A program made the translations under genes and the position numbers. A DNA stretch of 20,422 bases from a virus. Position 1 is the first letter of the stretch; each line of letters opens with the position of its first letter. The notes under the pieces are model-generated. The model was not told where the DNA came from and ran no database searches. It worked only from the letters and a program-made list of their open reading frames with translations. Positions 9,602 through 20,422 of the stretch are shown here, piece after piece. The stretch covers positions 1 to 20,422 of the IMG/VR virus record IMGVR_UViG_3300013132_005170, one strand, 5' to 3'.

Positions 9602-12600
9602 ATGGCACTCGTATCACCTGGCGTAGAAGTAACAGTAATCGACGAATCCAATTACTTGCCCGCGGCCACCAACTCGGTACCCTATTTCCTCATAGCCACC
9701 GCGCAGAACAAGATCTCAGGTGCAGGTGTAGGCGTCGCAGCAGGCACGCTGGCGGCCAATGCTGGCAAGGTCTACTTGATCACTAGCCAGCGCGATCTAG
9801 CAGCCACATTCGGTGTGCCGTTCTTCTACAAGACCGCGGCTGGCACACCCATCAACGGATACGAGCTGAACGAATATGGCTTGCTGGCAGCTTACTCGGC
9901 CCTGGGCATAAGCAACCGGGCCTATGTGCAGCGGGCCAATGTTGATCTGGCCGCGCTCACAGCAACCTTGGTGCGTCCCACTGGGGCTCCAGACAACGAT
10001 ACCTATTGGCTAGATACCGCCCAGACTTCCTGGGGCGTGTTCCAATGGAATCAGAGCACCGGCGAATTCACAGTGCAGACACCTATCGTGATCACTGACA
10101 CTGCCAACATCAGCGGCACGGCGCCTGCTCCGGGCATAGGATCTATCGGCCAGTATGCCGTGGTATCGGCCTTCGTGACCAATGCAGGCACTACGAATCT
10201 CAACGGCATTTGGTACAAAAATCTTGACAACACCTGGGTGGAGGTAGGATCAGACGCATGGAAGATGAGCTGGCCGACCCTACAGGGTGCGAACGCCGTG
10301 ACTGGCGGTTCTTTGACCGGACGTATCGTGATCAACGGCACCACTGTACCGGCCCTTGTGGATCCAGCCTGGAGCGATGCGACCTTGGCTACTGTTATCG
10401 CCAACATCAATAGTGCAGGCATCACTGGTGTGACTGCTGAGACCAATCTCACGCGTACCGGCAATAAACTTTGGTTGTATGCCGATTGCGAAGCCACCAG
10501 CGACGCATCCACCGCAGACGGTGGTGTTATCAACATTGATCCATCTTCTACGGCCGGTCTCCTGACAGCCTTGGGCATCAGCCTCACTCCCAGCAATCTT
10601 TTCCTGGCACCCGATCTGCAGCAGAGTCCCAACTACACAGTGCCTCGCTGGCGCACCACTGATACCGATGGTGGCCGTCCCACCGGTTCAGTCTGGAACA
10701 TGACGACTAATGTCAACTCCGGGGCCAACTTCGTGGTCAAGCGCTATGACAGCACGCTGGGCGCGTTTATCACCCAATCTTGCCAGCTGTTCTCAGGAGG
10801 TACACAGTCCCTCTTCGTGTTAGATCCTGCAGGCGGCGGCAAAAACATTTCAGCTGGCACCGTGGTGGGATTCTGGGACAGACAACCTGAAGCCTGCCCG
10901 GGATTTGGATACAATAACATCTTGACCACGGAGCTGAGAGTGCGATTGGCCACGGGCCCAGTCATCATCTCGGGCGATGTTACCAATCCCACGTTCACCA
11001 TCGGTGACGAGTTCACCATCAGATACAGCACAGCTGGAACCCAGACCTTGACCGGACCTTTCACAGTCACCCTGTCAGGCACTAGTGCGGCTAGTTTTGT
11101 CACAGATGTGTCGGCTGCATTGCCCAATGACATAGTATCAGCCTCAATCGATTCCGACGGGGCCATCACGTTCACCCACAGCCAGGGTGGTATGATAGTG
11201 CTAGAGGATGCCTCGGGCGATTCTGCCGTGGCGGACGCTGGATTCAACACCAGCGTGACCGGAGTGATCGAAGGTTATGGCAACTTGACAGGCGCACTGA
11301 TCTTGACCTATTGGGTGAACTTAGAATACACCTCCAGCTCGTCGGCGCCCGATCAAGATCCCGTAGACGGTACCTACTGGTACTATTCGGCTGTGGATGA
11401 AGTGGACATCATGATACAGGATGAGGGTGTCTGGCAAGGCTATCGCAATGTTTCAAATGACATCCGCGGTTACAATCTCACCCAGACCGATCCTGCAGGG
11501 CCCATCATCAGTGCTTCTGCTCCCACTGAACAGAGCGATGCAACAGCACTGGTGCAAGGTGATCTCTGGATCGATACCAGCAATCTCGAGCTGTACCCCG
11601 TGATCTATCGCTGGCAACAGGTGGATGGCGTGCTGCAATGGGTCGCCATCAACAATACCGATCAGACCACATCCAATGGTGTGCTGTTCGCAGATGCGCG
11701 ATGGGCACCTAACGGCACTACCAATCCCATCACGGACAACATCCCCACTATCACCAGCCTGCTCACCAGCGATTATCTCGATATCGATGCTCCGGATCCG
11801 GACCTGTATCCGGAAGGCATGCTGCTGTTCAACACCCGCCGGTCGGGTTTCAATGTCAAGACCTTCCAGTCCGACTATTTCAATGGCCAGGACTTTGCGT
11901 TTGACAGCTACAGCTCATCTACCACCTACTCCGTTGGCGACCCAGTGCTGTTTAACGCTGTGTTGTACGTGTGTATCCTGGCATCGACCGGCAACGCTCC
12001 CACCAACACTACCTACTGGTCACCTCTGGAGACCAATGCATGGGTCACGGCCAGTGGCAATCGCGCGGATGGATCGCCTTACATGGGACGGCAGGCCGTG
12101 AGACAGATCGTGGTCGCGGCCCTGCGCTCGGCCATCGACACGCAAGATACCTTGAGAGAAGAACAGGTTGGATTCAACCTTCTGGCTTGCCCGCAGTATC
12201 CCGAGCTCATGCGCAACATGGTCGCCCTCAACAACGAGCGCAACAACACTGGCTTCGTGGTTGGCGATACCCCCCTGCGCTTGCCTGCCACTGGCACTGA
12301 CATCACTGCCTGGGCTGACAATACCTCAGGTGGTACTGATGGTGAGAGCGGTATGACCTTGAGTGACCCATATCTTGGTGTGTTTTACCCCTCATGCCAG
12401 ACCACCGATCTTGGTGGAAGCATAGTGGTACAGCCTCCCAGCCACATGATGGTACGTACCATCATCCGCAACGACGAAGTGGCCTTCCCCTGGTTGGCCC
12501 CAGCTGGTGTGCGGCGTGGAGTGATAGACAATGCTGACGCCATCGGTTATGTCAATGGCCAGACAGGCGAGTTTACCACCATCGCTACCGGTCAGGGCCT

Positions 12601-13048
12601 GCGCGACACCCTGTATGAGAACAAGATCAACCCCATCACGTTCATACCAGGTGTGGGCATCACCAACTATGGTAACAAGACCGAAAGTGCTGTGACATCG
12701 GCCCTAGACCGTATCAACGTTGCTCGCTTGGTTGCATTCATCCGTGGACGCCTGGAAGAGATTGGCAAGACCTTCGTGTTCGAGCCCAACGACCAAATCA
12801 CCCGGAACGAGATATCCAATGCGATCGACGGGCTCATGATCGACTTGGTGGCCAAGCGTGGTATCTATGATTATCTGATCGTGTGCGATGAGTCAAACAA
12901 CACGCCCGCTCGGATCGATCGGAACGAGCTGTATGTGGACATCGCTATCGAACCGGTCAAGGCCGTGGAATTCATCTACATCCCCTTGCGGATCAAGAAC
13001 ACCGGCGAGATCTCCGCAGGCAACGTATCCAGCGCAAGCACCGTCTAA
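9602..13048 (+). CDS. 18: Tail sheath protein, T4 gp18-like, greatly enlarged
   Basis: Contractile sheath subunit around the tail tube. The N-terminus MALVSPGVEVTVIDESNY is the standard sheath start. The conserved C-terminal third (from about residue 830) has RRGVIDNADAIGYVN, NKINPITFIPGVGITNYGNK, a DRINVARLVAFIRGRLEEI helix, VFEPND, and the donor strand region VKAVEFIYIPLRI. Length is 1148 aa against 659 in T4; the excess is a Ser/Thr/Gly-rich central region (~130-830). Repeated aromatic modules there include NDTYWLDTAQTSWGVFQWNQ, GDLWIDTSNLELYPVIYRWQ and DGTYWYYSAVDEVDIMIQDE. At 774-809 lies TTYSVGDPVLFNAVLYVC...NTTYWSPL, a CBM5/12-like unit similar to one in the gp14-like protein. AAGGA precedes the ATG; a strong terminator follows. 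Confidence 0.92.
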   Translation: MALVSPGVEVTVIDESNYLPAATNSVPYFLIATAQNKISGAGVGVAAGTLAANAGKVYLITSQRDLAATFGVPFFYKTAAGTPINGYELNEYGLLAAYSALGISNRAYVQRANVDLAALTATLVRPTGAPDNDTYWLDTAQTSWGVFQWNQSTGEFTVQTPIVITDTANISGTAPAPGIGSIGQYAVVSAFVTNAGTTNLNGIWYKNLDNTWVEVGSDAWKMSWPTLQGANAVTGGSLTGRIVINGTTVPALVDPAWSDATLATVIANINSAGITGVTAETNLTRTGNKLWLYADCEATSDASTADGGVINIDPSSTAGLLTALGISLTPSNLFLAPDLQQSPNYTVPRWRTTDTDGGRPTGSVWNMTTNVNSGANFVVKRYDSTLGAFITQSCQLFSGGTQSLFVLDPAGGGKNISAGTVVGFWDRQPEACPGFGYNNILTTELRVRLATGPVIISGDVTNPTFTIGDEFTIRYSTAGTQTLTGPFTVTLSGTSAASFVTDVSAALPNDIVSASIDSDGAITFTHSQGGMIVLEDASGDSAVADAGFNTSVTGVIEGYGNLTGALILTYWVNLEYTSSSSAPDQDPVDGTYWYYSAVDEVDIMIQDEGVWQGYRNVSNDIRGYNLTQTDPAGPIISASAPTEQSDATALVQGDLWIDTSNLELYPVIYRWQQVDGVLQWVAINNTDQTTSNGVLFADARWAPNGTTNPITDNIPTITSLLTSDYLDIDAPDPDLYPEGMLLFNTRRSGFNVKTFQSDYFNGQDFAFDSYSSSTTYSVGDPVLFNAVLYVCILASTGNAPTNTTYWSPLETNAWVTASGNRADGSPYMGRQAVRQIVVAALRSAIDTQDTLREEQVGFNLLACPQYPELMRNMVALNNERNNTGFVVGDTPLRLPATGTDITAWADNTSGGTDGESGMTLSDPYLGVFYPSCQTTDLGGSIVVQPPSHMMVRTIIRNDEVAFPWLAPAGVRRGVIDNADAIGYVNGQTGEFTTIATGQGLRDTLYENKINPITFIPGVGITNYGNKTESAVTSALDRINVARLVAFIRGRLEEIGKTFVFEPNDQITRNEISNAIDGLMIDLVAKRGIYDYLIVCDESNNTPARIDRNELYVDIAIEPVKAVEFIYIPLRIKNTGEISAGNVSSASTV

Positions 13049-15711: not shown

Positions 15712-16203
15712 ATGACACAACGTCTGGAAGAACTTTTCGACTTACCCAACAATGACACGATCGAATCCAGCCCAGACCCGGCTGAACCGGGCAACGACAT
15801 CGAGACGAACCTGCCGGTTCTGCCAGACACTCTGGCAGCTCTTGACAAGATCGAAGCCGCCCTCCCCGCAGTAAAAGGCCTGGAAGCCTCGGACCAAGAG
15901 ATGGACGAGCTGGCCGACAAGGCCAAACGCGAGTTCGACAATCTCATGGATCTCGGCATGAACGTGGATAGCCGCTATGCTGCAGAGATCTTTGGCGTGG
16001 CCAGCCAGATGCTGGGCCATGCGATCACGGCCAAGAACGCCAAGCTCAATAAAAAATTGAAGATGATCGAGCTCCAGATGAAGAAGATGAAGTTGGATCA
16101 GGACAGTGGCAACGACAACATCCTGCCCACCGCACAAGGTCATGTGCTGGACAGGAACGAACTGCTCCGCACGCTCTTGGCTAACAATAAGGATAAAACA
16201 TAA
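15712..16203 (+). CDS. 16: Terminase small subunit, T4 gp16-like
   Basis: 163 aa (T4 gp16 is 164). The N-terminal ~60 residues are acidic and probably disordered. The centre is two long helices: MDELADKAKREFDNLMDLGM followed by YAAEIFGVASQMLGHAITAK and AKLNKKLKMIELQMKKMKL. This coiled-coil oligomerisation core is typical of T4-family small terminases, and DRNELLRTLLANN at the C-terminus matches the short terminal helix seen in aquatic T4-like versions. The small subunit regulates the gp17 motor and recognises DNA for packaging. ATG 15712 is used because the longer frame from 15607 only overlaps gp4. No Shine-Dalgarno is present; a TAAATA palindrome abuts the start. The next gene is a homing endonuclease beginning 2 bases after the stop. 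Confidence 0.75.
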   Translation: MTQRLEELFDLPNNDTIESSPDPAEPGNDIETNLPVLPDTLAALDKIEAALPAVKGLEASDQEMDELADKAKREFDNLMDLGMNVDSRYAAEIFGVASQMLGHAITAKNAKLNKKLKMIELQMKKMKLDQDSGNDNILPTAQGHVLDRNELLRTLLANNKDKT

Positions 16204-16204
16204 A

Positions 16205-16696
16205 ATGTCCTTCGATAAAAAAAATTTACCAATTGACTATTATGTTTACACCTATCTCAGGAATGACCAAACCCCATATTATGTAGGCAAAGGCAAAGGG
16301 AAAAGAGCATACATCAAACATGGATATCTGCCCGTTCCAACAGATATCAGTAAAATAAAAATTATTGCCCATAAACTGACATCTGGTGAAGCTTTCTTAC
16401 TTGAGGCCAAACTAATCACCAAATATGGTCGAAAAGACATAGGCACTGGTATTTTGAATAATAAGACAGATGGTGGCGGATCATCCGGAGCAGAAGTCTC
16501 TGAAGAGACTAAAACGAAGATGTCTATAGCTGCTCGTAACCGAAGCCCACGGTCATTTGAAACCAGACAAAAAATTGCTTTAGCTAACAAAATGCGACCG
16601 GCAATAAGTGAAGAAACTCGAAAAAAATGTCGGAGTCGGGTAAAAAACGCGCTCCGCGGTCTGCCGAAACCCGTGCTAAAATGTCGGCATCACTAA
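16205..16696 (+). CDS. GIY-YIG homing endonuclease with NUMOD3 repeats (zero-frame product, 163 aa)
   Basis: Mobile, self-spreading endonuclease gene. The GIY-YIG domain covers residues ~12-95: YYVYTYLRND (GIY strand), YYVGKGKGKRAY (YIG strand, with catalytic-type Arg34), GEAFLLEAKLI with metal-binding-type Glu67, and LNNKTDGGGSS. NUMOD3 DNA-binding repeats follow: SEETKTKMSIAARN, SFETRQKIALANK, SEETRKK. In the zero frame the last repeat breaks down after an A7 run at 16621-16627 and ends at 16696; the repeats continue in the -1 frame to 16869. The gene is AT-rich (line 16321-16380 is 21/60 GC, versus 40/60 at 18901-18960) and contains a single GATC, unlike its neighbours. It sits between gp16 and the next late gene, with no Shine-Dalgarno before ATG 16205. 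Confidence 0.85.
   Translation: MSFDKKNLPIDYYVYTYLRNDQTPYYVGKGKGKRAYIKHGYLPVPTDISKIKIIAHKLTSGEAFLLEAKLITKYGRKDIGTGILNNKTDGGGSSGAEVSEETKTKMSIAARNRSPRSFETRQKIALANKMRPAISEETRKKCRSRVKNALRGLPKPVLKCRHH
16621..16627 (+). other. A-AAA-AAA slippery heptamer / frameshift point in the endonuclease
   Basis: In the zero frame the codons read CG[A AAA AAA] TGT, the canonical X-XXY-YYZ form for -1 slippage. A -1 shift continues as ATG TCG GAG and joins the NUMOD3 repeats. CGGGT (16637-16641) can pair with ACCCG (16669-16673), starting 9 bases downstream, with an inner CGG/CCG hairpin. Confidence 0.5.
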
Positions 16697-16869
16697 CTGG
16701 TAAGCAAAGGTCTCCTGAAGCACGAGCAAGGATAAAGGCCGCAGCTATAAAAAGAAGCATGGGCAAGCCTTTATCGGCAGAAGTCAAGGCTAAAATATCG
16801 GCAACGAAAAAGGCCAAGATGCTAATAAATAATGAACAACACGGAATTGACCGCAATGAAACAATTTAG
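16627..16869 (+). pseudogene. -1 frame continuation of the GIY-YIG endonuclease: three more NUMOD3 repeats
   Basis: This 80-residue frame carries RSAETRAKMSASLTGKQRS, then PEARARIKAAAIKRSMGKPL, then SAEVKAKISATKKAKM: regular NUMOD3 units in register with those of the zero frame. Read through a -1 shift at 16627, the full protein would be 221 aa (141 before and 80 after the slip), a usual size for phage GIY-YIG enzymes. It has no ribosome-binding site of its own. Either the gene is a natural frameshift mutant, or it uses programmed slippage, or one A was gained or lost in assembly; the sequence alone does not decide. Its end contains the late promoter of the next gene and overlaps that gene's start by 14 bases. 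Confidence 0.7.
16824..16831 (+). promoter_or_regulatory. T4-type late promoter element (AATAAATA) inside the endonuclease 3' end
   Basis: Same octamer as before gp18 and gp19. The expected start near 16837 lies downstream of ATG 16832, which argues that ATG 16856 is the true start of the next gene. The endonuclease therefore carries, or was inserted upstream of, a promoter that keeps its neighbour expressed. Confidence 0.6.
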
Positions 16870-16891
16870 AGACTATTTGGCTGAAGCCCAA
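16856..16891 (+). other. Capsid-targeting-like peptide MKQFRDYLAEAQ
   Basis: Encodes M-K-x-aromatic-x-acidic-aromatic-(L/I)-A-E-A, matching the T4 IP/Alt-type signal removed by prohead protease after Glu10. Confidence 0.6.
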
Positions 16892-17467
16892 CGTACTTTT
16901 GACTACAGAATCAAAATCGTGGGTGATCTGCCCACAGGCTTTGAGAAGGAGTTCAAAGATGCCCTCAAGCAGTTTGATCCAGTGAGTGTGGGGTCGTTCA
17001 AGACCACGCCCATACTGGCCAAGCCCCAAGGTTTCGCGAACTTCCCCAACAGCCCCGTCAACATCATGGATGTTGAGTTCCGCTATCCCGCAGCACCTCC
17101 ACAGATCACCAAGATCGCGCGCTTGCTGGGCGTGGACAGCGATGACCGAGTGATGACGTTTGATCGTGCTTGGTCGGATGGCATGGACCGGGAATTGCTG
17201 GGTATCGAAGATCAGAACAAAGATCTCTTGAACTCACCTTACCCCGCTGACTCTGCCGAACAGAAGGCCCTCAAGGCCGACTACGCTGCCGTAGGAGTGG
17301 ACAAGCAAGTGGTCAAGAACTCGGCAGGTGAAGCACGATTCACCGTGGCTGGTGGTCGCACACCGCCCGCCGAAACAACCAATGACCTACCCGTGGGAGT
17401 GAAAAGTCCCATCTCTAACATCAAGCGTCCGCCGAAACCGGCCACGGGCGCACAACCTCGAGGCTGA
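16856..17467 (+). CDS. Candidate internal head protein with T4-type capsid-targeting N-terminus (203 aa)
   Basis: The first residues MKQFRDYLAEAQ align with the T4 internal-protein capsid-targeting sequence MKTYQEFIAEA, position by position conservative. In T4 the prohead protease gp21 cuts it after Glu (L/I-x-E↓). The body has a compact N-terminal domain (YRIKIVGDLPTGFEKEFKDA, LKQFDPVSVGSFKTTPI, an FPNSPVNIMDVEFRYPAAPP strand and ITKIARLLGV). A Pro/Gly-rich tail of about 60 residues follows. Similar domains occur in aquatic T4-like phages, function unknown to me. ATG 16856 is favoured over 16832 because the late promoter at 16824-16831 would start transcription after 16832, and because only 16856 puts the targeting peptide at the terminus. 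Shine-Dalgarno weak (CGGAA). The next gene starts 1 base after its stop. Confidence 0.7.
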   Translation: MKQFRDYLAEAQRTFDYRIKIVGDLPTGFEKEFKDALKQFDPVSVGSFKTTPILAKPQGFANFPNSPVNIMDVEFRYPAAPPQITKIARLLGVDSDDRVMTFDRAWSDGMDRELLGIEDQNKDLLNSPYPADSAEQKALKADYAAVGVDKQVVKNSAGEARFTVAGGRTPPAETTNDLPVGVKSPISNIKRPPKPATGAQPRG

Positions 17468-17468
17468 T

Positions 17469-19049
17469 ATGGATAACATTTACGACATTCTCAACAAGTT
17501 CAACTCTGTCACGCAGGACCGGCCTCGCGAGCAGATCACCGAAAGCGTGATGGAAGTGGCCATCGAAGAAGTGGGCGGCGAGCCCATGACGGCCAAGCAG
17601 AAGAGCTTTGCCAAGCTGGCTCCTCCCGCGGACAAGATCACTTTCGCCGACAAGATCGCCGGCGCCAAGAAAGAAGTGGACGAGATGCTGGGCGATGTGG
17701 CCGCCGAAGCCATGAAGAAGGCCGTGGTCGGCCTCAAAGGCGAGCAAGGCATGGAAGAAGGCAATGACTTTACCGGTGCGCGTTTGGCAGCCATCAAGGC
17801 CGGCAAGCCCACATTCTCGGTTGGCGGCAAAACATTCAAAGTCACGGGCGACACATCAGATGAAAAGATGATGGAGAAGAAAGAAAAGACCCTGTGGCCC
17901 GGCACACCCGAATACAAGGCCAAGTTTGGTCATGAGATGAAGACCGGCGAGAAGAAACGCTCGTCTACCGGCGGCGAGATTGAAAAGACTGATACTGGCG
18001 TCAAGCACACCAAGAGCTATGACGACGAAGAAGGCGATGATGCCAAGACCGATGATGGCGCACCCAAAAAACGTGGTCGTCCCAAAGGCAAGGACAAAGG
18101 CCCCGAGCGTGTGACAGCCAAGGCCTGGAAGCACAAAGGTGGCCGGGTGAAAGAAGGCATGGAAGATGAAGAGTCCATTGCCGTAGTCGACCGGGGCGAA
18201 TACGATCGCGAAGGCGACATGGCAAAAGAACAACTGCATACCGCGGCTGACGCTGCTCGCGAGCTGCACGACATCCTGGATTCAGATGAGAATCTGCCAG
18301 AGTGGGTGCAGAGCAAGATCACCAAGGCCATGGACTATCTCGACACTGCCCGCGACTACATGAAAGCCTCTGACTCGGAAGACGACGAAGAACAGCCCAT
18401 GATGGCGGAAAAATTCGCCAGCAAGGCCCAGGCACGCCTCATGCATGCTACAGCGGGTGGTGCCGACACTGGCGTGAGCAAGAAGACCGCCAAGGAGTTC
18501 ATCAAGAAGAGCCATGGCCAGAAGGTAGGAGACCTACCAGAGAAAGTGAAAAAAGACGAAGCCGTGGAAGAGACCACCACGTCTGGCGCAGTGGCCACGT
18601 CCGATGAAGCTCCCAAGTCCAAAGGCAAAAAAGGCATGGTGTTTGGCAAGGGTGTGTATGAAGGTTATGAAGAGAAATACAAGCGACTGCTAACAGAAGG
18701 CATGAGCGTGAACATGAGCGTGGGAGAAGATGGCAAGAAAAGCCTGAACGTCAACGCCACGGACGAAGATGCTGTGAAACTGGCACAGATACTGAAACTG
18801 GCTGGCATGGAACAGGCCCATGGTTGTGGCAGCCTGGAAGAGGCCGACTATGCCAACTCACCCGAAGAGACCGGCGCCGACATCAACACCTTGGTCAACA
18901 CCTACAGCGACGGCCTGGATGGACAGAAGACCACGGGCCAGACCACCATCCCCGTGGTGGCAGGACAGACCCAGAGGATGATGAGCCAGGTGCGGGAACA
19001 GGCCGAACAGCGCCTGTGGGATCTCTACAAGCGGTATGAAAACAAATGA
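17469..19049 (+). CDS. Large acidic modular protein, probable head-associated or core protein (526 aa)
   Basis: No single family recognised; it is a string of short modules separated by Lys/Glu-rich linkers. Visible: EGNDFTGARLAAIKAGKPTF with VGGKTFKV (~96-126); an AT-hook-like PKKRGRPKGKDKG (~199-210) that could bind DNA; GEYDREGDMAKEQLHTAADA and LPEWVQSKITKAMDYLDTAR (~243-292), a helical module recurrent in aquatic phages; a DUF3008-like SKAQARLM...LPEKVKK (~318-361); and a tail LKLAGMEQ...CGSLEEADYANSPEE (~445-468). L-T-E410↓G and L-E-E458↓A fit the T4 prohead-protease rule (L/I-x-E). The DNA-binding-like motif, high charge and protease-like sites suggest a core or internal head protein. 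GAGG lies 5 bases before the ATG; its end overlaps the next gene by ATGA. Confidence 0.65.
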   Translation: MDNIYDILNKFNSVTQDRPREQITESVMEVAIEEVGGEPMTAKQKSFAKLAPPADKITFADKIAGAKKEVDEMLGDVAAEAMKKAVVGLKGEQGMEEGNDFTGARLAAIKAGKPTFSVGGKTFKVTGDTSDEKMMEKKEKTLWPGTPEYKAKFGHEMKTGEKKRSSTGGEIEKTDTGVKHTKSYDDEEGDDAKTDDGAPKKRGRPKGKDKGPERVTAKAWKHKGGRVKEGMEDEESIAVVDRGEYDREGDMAKEQLHTAADAARELHDILDSDENLPEWVQSKITKAMDYLDTARDYMKASDSEDDEEQPMMAEKFASKAQARLMHATAGGADTGVSKKTAKEFIKKSHGQKVGDLPEKVKKDEAVEETTTSGAVATSDEAPKSKGKKGMVFGKGVYEGYEEKYKRLLTEGMSVNMSVGEDGKKSLNVNATDEDAVKLAQILKLAGMEQAHGCGSLEEADYANSPEETGADINTLVNTYSDGLDGQKTTGQTTIPVVAGQTQRMMSQVREQAEQRLWDLYKRYENK

Positions 19050-19078
19050 AAACGCTCCAGGACTACATAGCCGAGACA
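19046..19078 (+). other. Capsid-targeting-like peptide MKTLQDYIAET
   Basis: Matches the T4 internal-protein leader MKTYQEFIAEA with conservative changes; predicted prohead-protease cut after Glu10. Confidence 0.55.
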
Positions 19079-20335
19079 GAAGAATGGATGGACGATCCCC
19101 AAGTGGGAGATGCGTTCGACATAGAGTTAGCGCCCGATCACCTGATCGAGACCGTGATCCTCGAGACCACGGCGGATGGCATCGTGATCGAAGCGGACGA
19201 GCATCTTGAGAGCCTGCTGGAAAGTCGCGGCTGGATTGGAGAGAGGATCGGCACCTACGGCGCCGTGGGCTATGGTGGCATGGGCCAGACCTTCTTCGAG
19301 AAAGACCTCGGCGAAGGTGGCATAGACCCCAATCGCCATCCGCAGACCCGTGACTATGGAACTGGTCATGACGAACACAAGGAACCGGACGATGCGCCTT
19401 TTGAGCCGGACACCAAGACTTCGGACCGAGATCAGTTTGGCAATCTCATCAAGCACCGGGCGCGACATCTCGCACGCAAAGGTTTGTCAGGTCAGTCGCA
19501 AGATGCCAAAGCACAAGATGTGGCGGAAGGCGTGAATGCTAAACAGATAAAAAAAGATCTCGACACCGGGATGTCACATGACGCAGTCATCGGAAAACAC
19601 GCCAACAAAAGAATGACAAACACCGATGAAATCAGACGGGTGATCCAGCAACACGCATGGGACAAGCGCACAAAAACTAATACAAAACAAGAGCAAGGTG
19701 TGGCGGAAGGCGCCATGAAAGAGTTAGCTATAGAACTGGAAGATTACAAACGCATGAGCCCCCAAGAGTTCGAGCGTGCGTATGGCATGAAGAAGGCTGA
19801 CTGGGCCATGAAACACCATGACATCATCGGCAAGGAAAACCTACAGGTAGATTGGACCGGCAAGACTGGCTTTGACTACGTTAAAGAAACGTCGGCCTAC
19901 ATGGCACGCATGCTGGAGCTGGCTGGTCTCCCACGACCAGTGGAAGAAGATCAATCAGCCGGTGTAGTGGCCAAAAAAGAGTTAGATATCGATGCCGCAC
20001 GAGACTTGGGCGAAGGATCCACCTGCAACATGACAGCTGAAGGCGAATCATGCCCGGTGCATGGCCTGGAGGAATGCGGATCGATCGAAGAGGCCAAGTA
20101 TCAAGGTCGTGAAGTCAAGTTAGGAAAACCATTCCTCACTCCTGGCGGACCGAAGAAGCGCAGCGTCTATGTGAAGAATCCCAAAGGCAATGTGGTGAAA
20201 GTGAACTTTGGTGATCCAAACATGCGTATCAAAAAATCAAATCCGGGCCGCCGCAAATCATTTAGATCTCGCCATAATTGTGCCAATCCAGGTCCTCGCC
20301 ACAAGGCCAGATTTTGGTCATGTAGAATGTGGTGA
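19046..20335 (+). CDS. Candidate capsid-targeted polyprotein with VAEG repeats and C-terminal FGDPNM/RHNC domain (429 aa)
   Basis: It starts MKTLQDYIAETE, again like the T4 capsid-targeting sequence, with I-A-E10↓ as the predicted cut. Residues ~20-60 form an acidic alpha/beta segment. Further (L/I/V)-x-E-(G/A) sites lie at 90 (LGE↓G), 161 and 221 (VAE↓G), 323 (LGE↓G) and 349 (IEE↓A). Between the two VAEG sites is a 60-residue basic cassette (QIKKDLDTGMSHDAV, TNTDEIRRVIQQHAW). Residues ~222-300 form another helical unit. The C-terminal ~80 residues (KKRSVYVKNPKGNVVKVNFG, DPNMRIKKSNPGRRKSFRSR, HNCANPGPRHKARFWSCRMW) are a basic Cys/Trp domain widespread in aquatic phage proteins; function unknown to me. 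Coupled by ATGA to the previous gene. A second homing endonuclease starts 2 bases downstream. Confidence 0.68.
   Translation: MKTLQDYIAETEEWMDDPQVGDAFDIELAPDHLIETVILETTADGIVIEADEHLESLLESRGWIGERIGTYGAVGYGGMGQTFFEKDLGEGGIDPNRHPQTRDYGTGHDEHKEPDDAPFEPDTKTSDRDQFGNLIKHRARHLARKGLSGQSQDAKAQDVAEGVNAKQIKKDLDTGMSHDAVIGKHANKRMTNTDEIRRVIQQHAWDKRTKTNTKQEQGVAEGAMKELAIELEDYKRMSPQEFERAYGMKKADWAMKHHDIIGKENLQVDWTGKTGFDYVKETSAYMARMLELAGLPRPVEEDQSAGVVAKKELDIDAARDLGEGSTCNMTAEGESCPVHGLEECGSIEEAKYQGREVKLGKPFLTPGGPKKRSVYVKNPKGNVVKVNFGDPNMRIKKSNPGRRKSFRSRHNCANPGPRHKARFWSCRMW
19514..19712 (+). repeat. Direct repeats CAAG(A/G)TGTGGCGGAAGGCG bounding a 60-codon cassette
   Basis: Copies at 19514-19532 and 19694-19712 are 19 bases long with one mismatch, exactly 180 bases apart, so the unit is in frame. 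Each encodes Q-x-V-A-E-G. The DNA between the copies is richer in A than the flanks, as expected of an inserted module. Confidence 0.75.
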
Positions 20336-20336
20336 C

Positions 20337-20422
20337 ATGCGATATCTAATTTATAAAATCACCAACCGCCTCAATGGCAGATATTACATTGGTCGTCATA
20401 GAACCAACAATGTTGATGATTC
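20337..20422 (+). CDS. GIY-YIG homing endonuclease, N-terminus only (cut by window end)
   Basis: ATG 20337 opens 2 bases after the preceding stop, and 28 codons are visible. LIYKITNRLNGRYYIGRHRT contains the GIY strand (LIYKITN) and YIG strand (YYIGRH) of SegB-type GIY-YIG nucleases. The reading frame is still open at the end of the window. No Shine-Dalgarno is visible. The DNA is AT-rich like the first endonuclease. It is the second GIY-YIG gene within 4.2 kb, and the two bracket the capsid-targeted protein genes. Confidence 0.75.
   Translation, partial: MRYLIYKITNRLNGRYYIGRHRTNNVDD

Follow-up and report, generated by a model that had tools for sequence, protein, structure and literature searches.

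T4-type capsid-targeting leaders on a candidate prohead-core protein cassette of an uncultivated T4-type myovirus

Introduction

Internal head proteins are hard to recognize because their bodies have nothing in common, and in T-even phages finding them by their leader is established (PMC12373910). The IMG/VR virus fragment IMGVR_UViG_3300013132_005170 (20,422 bases, here called the window), which ends short of the head genes, contains three consecutive genes, two of which start with sequences that look like this leader. An earlier note on the same DNA had proposed that genes 1 and 3 of this cluster encode internal head proteins that may be injected into the host. This raises the question of whether the two leaders are capsid-targeting sequences of the T4 type and which kind of protein they would carry into the head. 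Our answer, which we regard as probable, is that the leaders dock the products of genes 1 and 3 in the prohead core, an S77 protease trims them, the gene 2 product is cut twice, and all three products stay with the packaged DNA. The features of the cassette are as follows (a slash marks a predicted cut).

16824 to 16831, + strand: AATAAATA, 5' of gene 1, resembling a T4-type late promoter box
16856 to 17467, + strand: gene 1, 203 amino acids (aa), starting MKQFRDYLAEAQ; putative capsid-targeted virion protein of the phrog_14802 type
16856 to 16885, + strand: gene 1 leader MKQFRDYLAE, predicted cut before A11
17469 to 19049, + strand: gene 2, AT-hook protein of 526 aa; candidate substrate of the prohead protease at two sites
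17535 to 17543, + strand: gene 2 N-terminal site ITE/S (residues 23 to 25), closing the segment MDNIYDILNKF...
18066 to 18092, + strand: gene 2 AT-hook KKRGRPKGK with a GRP core
18690 to 18698, + strand: gene 2 internal site LTE/G, immediately 5' of the conserved block MSVNMS
18834 to 18842, + strand: gene 2 second internal motif LEE/A, present in the window, with no gp21-type motif kept in orthologues
19046 to 20335, + strand: gene 3, 429 aa, starting MKTLQDYIAETE; putative capsid-targeted protein
19046 to 19075, + strand: gene 3 leader MKTLQDYIAE, predicted cut before T11
20087 to 20332, + strand: gene 3 C-terminal domain, phrog_7595 (E=8e-8)

Results

Leaders of genes 1 and 3

In the T4 genome, ipII and ipIII both begin with the leader MKTYQEFIAEA. 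The leaders that the earlier note had placed at 16856 and 19046 were borne out, with both starts correct, and MKQFRDYLAE/A of gene 1 and MKTLQDYIAE/T of gene 3 are in register with MKTYQEFIAE/A of the T4 internal proteins (IPs) IPII and IPIII. Across IPI, IPII, IPIII, and the products of genes 1 and 3, residues 2, 4, 7, 8, and 10 of this 10-residue N-terminal leader are the same or similar. Mutational work on T4 IPIII showed that residues 4 and 7 are the main determinants of targeting, that residues 8 and 10 govern processing, and that Asp at position 10 stops processing but not targeting (PMC9026906).

We collected 47 IMG/VR homologues of gene 1, of which 37 distinct sequences entered the alignment; the window's gene 1 is 46 to 85% identical to the other members. 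In line with the expectation that orthologues would keep the leader, it is found in all 47. Among the 37 distinct homologues, M1, Y7, L8, and E10 are invariant and K2 and F4 are each kept in 34, while positions 3, 5, 6, and 9 vary. The positions fixed in this alignment coincide with those governing targeting and processing in T4. For gene 3, in an alignment of 21 orthologues, Y7 is present in every sequence and E10 in 19; position 4 is L or F and position 8 is I, L, M, or F.

The homologues also agree on the start of gene 1: in each of the 47 homologues the first codon is that of the leader methionine, and an AGG(A)-type ribosome site and a TAAATA box precede it. The TAAATA hexamer lies at most 40 nucleotides 5' of gene 1 in 37 of 37 distinct homologues, compared with 35 of 184 and 27 of 160 open reading frames (ORFs) of at least 100 aa in two relatives. 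The window itself has an in-frame ATG at 16832, 24 bases 5' of the leader methionine, in a 5' context altered because a GIY-YIG-like gene was inserted just upstream.

To score the leader across genomes we used the strict expression M[KR].[FYLWHM]..[FYHW][LIMVF].E. It matched 3 of 409 ORFs in T4, namely, ipII, ipIII, and 61.1. The last (genome positions 18966 to 19130; 54 aa, annotated as hypothetical) adjoins the DNA primase gene and starts MKTFKEFIKED, a full capsid-targeting match. The search of related genomes that the earlier note had called for covered five long relatives (157 to 209 kb; 2,713 ORFs of at least 50 aa) and returned seven matches, every one of them on gene 1 (5/5 relatives) or gene 3 (2/5). 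Related loci totaling 1.64 Mb, with 14,162 ATG starts, gave 73 matches: 50 on gene 1, 21 on gene 3, and 2 on another family.

Could such a short similarity be chance, or a generic amphipathic helix? The expression does have false positives, matching a helicase and a clamp-loader subunit in four marine Kyanoviridae genomes, so that the motif by itself would not carry the argument, which depends on conservation and adjacency. In two gene families the residues are conserved by position, the matches lie next to each other, and the five genomes have none elsewhere; on these grounds we judge chance or a generic helix very improbable.

Behind the leader the resemblance to T4 ends. When the gene 1 profile was aligned with 337 T4 ORFs by hhalign, residues 1 to 12 of ipII were the top match, though a weak one, and residues 1 to 6 of ipI alone aligned besides; no homology to a T4 IP body was seen, which agrees with the earlier description of bodies unlike those of T4.

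Prohead protease and capsid protein

The earlier note had named the lack of a prohead protease as an observation that would speak against its proposal. An S77 (gp21-type) protease was found above the cut-off in all five relatives longer than 150 kb, as well as in PA5oct and Atu_ph07. In the relatives, the head cluster follows the T4 order of portal, two small core-like proteins, S77 protease, scaffold, and capsid protein. The capsid proteins of all five have KYL(K/R)E/NA(S/T) N-terminal to a conserved P-x-I-R-R...GVQPM block, where T4 gp23 is cut within SFLTE/AEI. The leaders and these capsid proteins thus have aromatic-(L/I)-x-E in common, and by this likeness the predicted cut would follow the glutamate in both.

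Gene 2 as a candidate protease substrate

In the loci examined, gene 1 is followed by an orthologue of gene 2, and the PA5oct gene at this position is annotated with electrospray ionization tandem mass spectrometry (ESI-MS/MS). As the earlier note had seen, gene 2 has no T4 leader. It has instead a conserved N-terminal segment of its own, of which there are three main types (M[ND]N[MI]YDIL..., MTFFYDLNKKL..., and MDMYRILENF...). Within residues 9 to 36, (L/I)xE occurs in 32 of 37 orthologues versus 8.8 ± 2.5 in shuffled sequences, and (L/I)xE followed by G, S, A, or N in 24 versus 2.6 ± 1.5. At the internal site, at least 21 of 23 orthologues have LTE, LNE, LAE, or IAE and next a G or S, with the x position varying. 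The N-terminal segment and the internal (L/I)xE/(G/S) site together suggest that the gene 2 product is probably a substrate too, cut at two conserved (L/I)xE sites, and in this respect the earlier note needs correction.

Of the three motifs that the note had listed in gene 2, the AT-hook and LTE/G hold up. LEE/A is present in the window, but orthologues show VAE, IEE, VEE, MSE, or LDE at this position, and we rejected it as a cleavage site. The GRP core of the AT-hook is kept in 33 of 37 orthologues, mostly with basic flanks and often as KRGRGRPKG, and judged by this motif the protein may bind DNA.

Gene 3 and its shuffled C-terminal domain

Gene 3 consists of the leader, a small beta N-domain, a variable linker, and a C-terminal ...RHNC...ARFWSCRMW domain. 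Its orthologues are 192 to 545 aa long with variable middles, and their bodies are unrelated to that of gene 1. The C-terminal phrog_7595 domain is widely shuffled, with many unrelated N-terminal partners in viral contigs. The structural model of gene 3 (predicted local distance difference test [pLDDT], 62.6; predicted template modeling score [pTM], 0.25) was too uncertain, at this pTM, to serve as a structure-search query.

Related domains were seen in two other phages. C48C1 (L159:4974-5291) has the RYWSC C-terminal domain of gene 3 directly behind a T4-type leader, MKKFKQYIDE. Melnitz-3 (L160:3378-5330) encodes a protein starting MKKFSEIIEA with a cytidylyltransferase-like domain and a stretch related to the RYWSC domain.

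Gene 1 in a wider family of virion proteins

The gene 1 product is laid out as leader, ferredoxin-like domain (about residues 15 to 105), and a helical and disordered tail. Its AlphaFold2 model (pLDDT 72.7) has a ribosomal S6-like ferredoxin-like arrangement, with VIA Z up to 7.6 and Foldseek E values above 1e-3. We dropped the fold as a functional clue, as this arrangement is too common to guide function.

Profile matches were more informative about the family. phrog_14802, annotated as virion structural protein, matches 31 of the 37 members of the gene 1 alignment (best E value, 4e-7), with the window's gene 1 alone giving a weak match (E=0.39); phrog_2667, annotated as internal head protein, matches 9 of 37. 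phrog_14802 also matches proteins of PA5oct, Atu_ph07, and Vibrio phage 2.275.O, and the PA5oct protein as a tblastn query gives weak matches in RaK2, GAP32, CBB, and 121Q. The phrog_14802 proteins CBB_210, GAP32_204, RaK2 ORF047, 121Q gp557, PA5oct EST35_0202, and Atu_ph07 AUZ94910 belong to the same family as gene 1 and have a like gene position, after a gp4-like gene. Two of them are virion proteins by mass spectrometry: CBB_210 was detected in purified virions with 13 peptides and 60.5% coverage (PMC5259590), and EST35_0202 is annotated ESI-MS/MS. Gene 1 is therefore a conserved virion component, of a family found across many T4-type jumbo phages.

The leader is kept to different degrees in this family. 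The Atu_ph07 homologue has the full motif (MKTLQDYLTES), and L-T-E is kept in the homologues of 121Q and Vibrio phage 2.275.O. The strict scan of PA5oct gave no match, the targeting half alone being found on its gene 1 homologue and a few other proteins. Most of the listed phrog_14802 proteins lack E10 or an aromatic residue 7, unlike gene 1, which makes the full T4-type leader special to the aquatic lineage, plus Atu_ph07. This decay in parts of the family points to a conserved virion role with lineage-specific processing rather than a disposable accessory function.

These observations bear on the analogy with T4 drawn in the earlier note and on the rival explanation in which the cassette would encode injected counter-defense proteins equivalent to T4 IPI to IPIII, inhibitors of modification-dependent restriction. 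In T4, proteins bearing this leader enter the host by injection, and Ip1 to Ip3 block GmrSD enzymes (PMC12373910); gene 3 bodies, too, vary in length and domain content. However, gene 1 is deeply conserved over phages of unrelated hosts, the opposite of the variable T4 IPs, and it is this conservation that makes a counter-defense role unlikely, given that Ip1 to Ip3 act on variable GmrSD enzymes (PMC12373910). Gene 2 is conserved as well in the loci examined, the similarity to T4 is confined to the leader, and a PADLOC search for defense families gave no match. We consider this explanation improbable, and the analogy was not supported.

Gene context

Other genes of the window encode tail sheath and tube proteins, a neck protein, and a gp4-like head-closure protein. 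The tail sheath gene (9602 to 13048) encodes 1148 aa, far more than that of T4, with a weak match to the carbohydrate-binding module PF02839 below the cut-off. For the 163- to 169-aa gene preceding gene 1, an assignment as small terminase was unsupported by hhalign against the ORFs of T4 and DSL-LC02, and we leave it unnamed. Two further features adjoin the cassette.

16199 to 16869: GIY-YIG-type homing endonuclease gene, inserted directly 5' of gene 1
20338 to 20422: second ORF, starting MRYLIYKITNRLNGRYYIGRHRTNNVDD, GIY-YIG-like by eye, directly 3' of gene 3 and running off the contig

Counting the second ORF, such genes stand on both sides of the cassette. The frame of the first is broken near 16627 to 16696 and its tail resumes in another frame; it is either a decayed gene or the carrier of a sequencing error. 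The relative L001, which is 85% identical, lacks this insert.

The large terminase gene lies a few genes 3' of the cassette in relatives such as L003, and PA5oct, which shares synteny with the window, has a terminase-like gene two genes past its gene 1 homologue. In most relatives, one or two small genes starting MRAREF(I/L)xE lie 3' of gene 3 (e.g., L003:13844-14595). Their products are about 125 aa long and end in FKGYPR, and the leader is one residue shorter than that of T4 with the same aromatic-hydrophobic-x-E end; a family search with these genes gave no match.

Discussion

We propose that genes 1 to 3 form a late cassette of prohead-core (internal head) proteins of an uncultivated T4-type myovirus. 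By means of the N-terminal helix M-K-x-(F/L)-x-x-Y-(L/I)-x-E, the products of genes 1 and 3 would dock into the scaffold core as the prohead forms, and a gp21-like S77 protease would then cut both after E10, removing ten residues. The gene 2 product would enter by a different N-terminal segment; one cut would follow (I/L)xE near residue 25, and a second would precede the C-terminal block. The AT-hook of this protein suggests that it sits on the packaged DNA. Once maturation is complete, the trimmed proteins would remain in the head with the DNA. Their ejection into the host is possible, a suggestion we make tentatively.

Several points weigh against this account. The evidence for this phage comes from its sequence, and no S77 protease was found in the 20-kb window contig, a fragment, so that we infer the protease from the relatives. 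Mass spectrometry of CBB and PA5oct places the gene 1 family in the virion, not specifically in the head interior. The homologues are related, and the conservation counts are not counts of independent events; to this the false matches of the strict expression have to be added. E10 is lost in two gene 3 lineages (L015 and L044). Among gene 1 homologues, that of PA5oct starts MKSFRDYYDAS, with F4 and Y7 kept and L8 and E10 lost, and residue 10 is A in XaC1 and D in RaK2 and Serratia phage BF. With E10 lost or replaced in several of them, cleavage is not a general feature of the family, and the helix might belong to the fold itself.

The last point leads to the strongest competing explanation, that gene 1 encodes a structural virion protein of the neck, portal vertex, or inner head, with an N-terminal helix that is a part of the fold or a binding element rather than a removable tag, gene 3 alone having a look-alike. 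The helix stands at a constant spacing from the first strand throughout the family, even where residue 10 is D, A, or S, and the family adjoins tail and head-closure genes. What argues for a removable tag is that L8 and E10 are invariant in the 47 close homologues while neighboring residues vary, that the same leader stands on gene 3 with its unrelated body, and that the strict leader is otherwise almost absent from the genomes of the five long relatives. We therefore consider a purely structural helix unlikely, and prefer a cassette targeted to the prohead core.

Like the T4 system, the proposed cassette combines one leader with bodies unrelated to each other, a predicted gp21-type cut after E10, and an S77 protease encoded in the genome, in our case in the long relatives of the window. 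It differs in that the bodies of genes 1 and 3 are unrelated to those of the T4 IPs, in that gene 1 is conserved across T4-type jumbo phages whereas the T4 IPs are variable and accessory, and in the arrangement as a three-gene cassette that precedes the large terminase gene and has an AT-hook protein in the middle. Internal head proteins are also known from phiKZ-like giant phages, where SPN3US gp45, gp47, gp50, gp53, and gp54 have N-terminal propeptides cut after x-x-E by the prohead protease. These propeptides are mostly far longer, with A-x-E or S/A-x-E motifs, and are not the 10-residue T4 leader.

T4-type leaders were also seen on cytidylyltransferase-like proteins of the marine Kyanoviridae cyanophages S-SM2 (L251:16761-17984) and DSL-LC02 (L261:3545-4621) and on DUF6267-type proteins of two viral contigs (L074:486 and L086:859), which suggests tagged enzymes as head cargo. 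A literature search on the T4-type tag in cyanophages found no paper, subscription papers being outside its coverage. The new points are the lineage itself, the presence of the leader on a virion family that is conserved, the candidate AT-hook substrate encoded alongside, and the signs of the leader on other marine T4-type cargo. The T4-type tag might even be a general cargo system far outside the family of T4, loading accessory proteins, conserved virion proteins, and enzymes into the head, by which phages in the environment might deliver a defined set of proteins along with their DNA; we put this forward as a conjecture with somewhat less than even chances.

A conserved tag whose fixed and variable positions match the T4 mutational data makes internal proteins findable in uncultivated phages. 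The cassette would show that targeting as defined in T4 reaches T4-type phages outside the Straboviridae and serves a conserved virion protein, and it would yield a testable list of candidate cargo.
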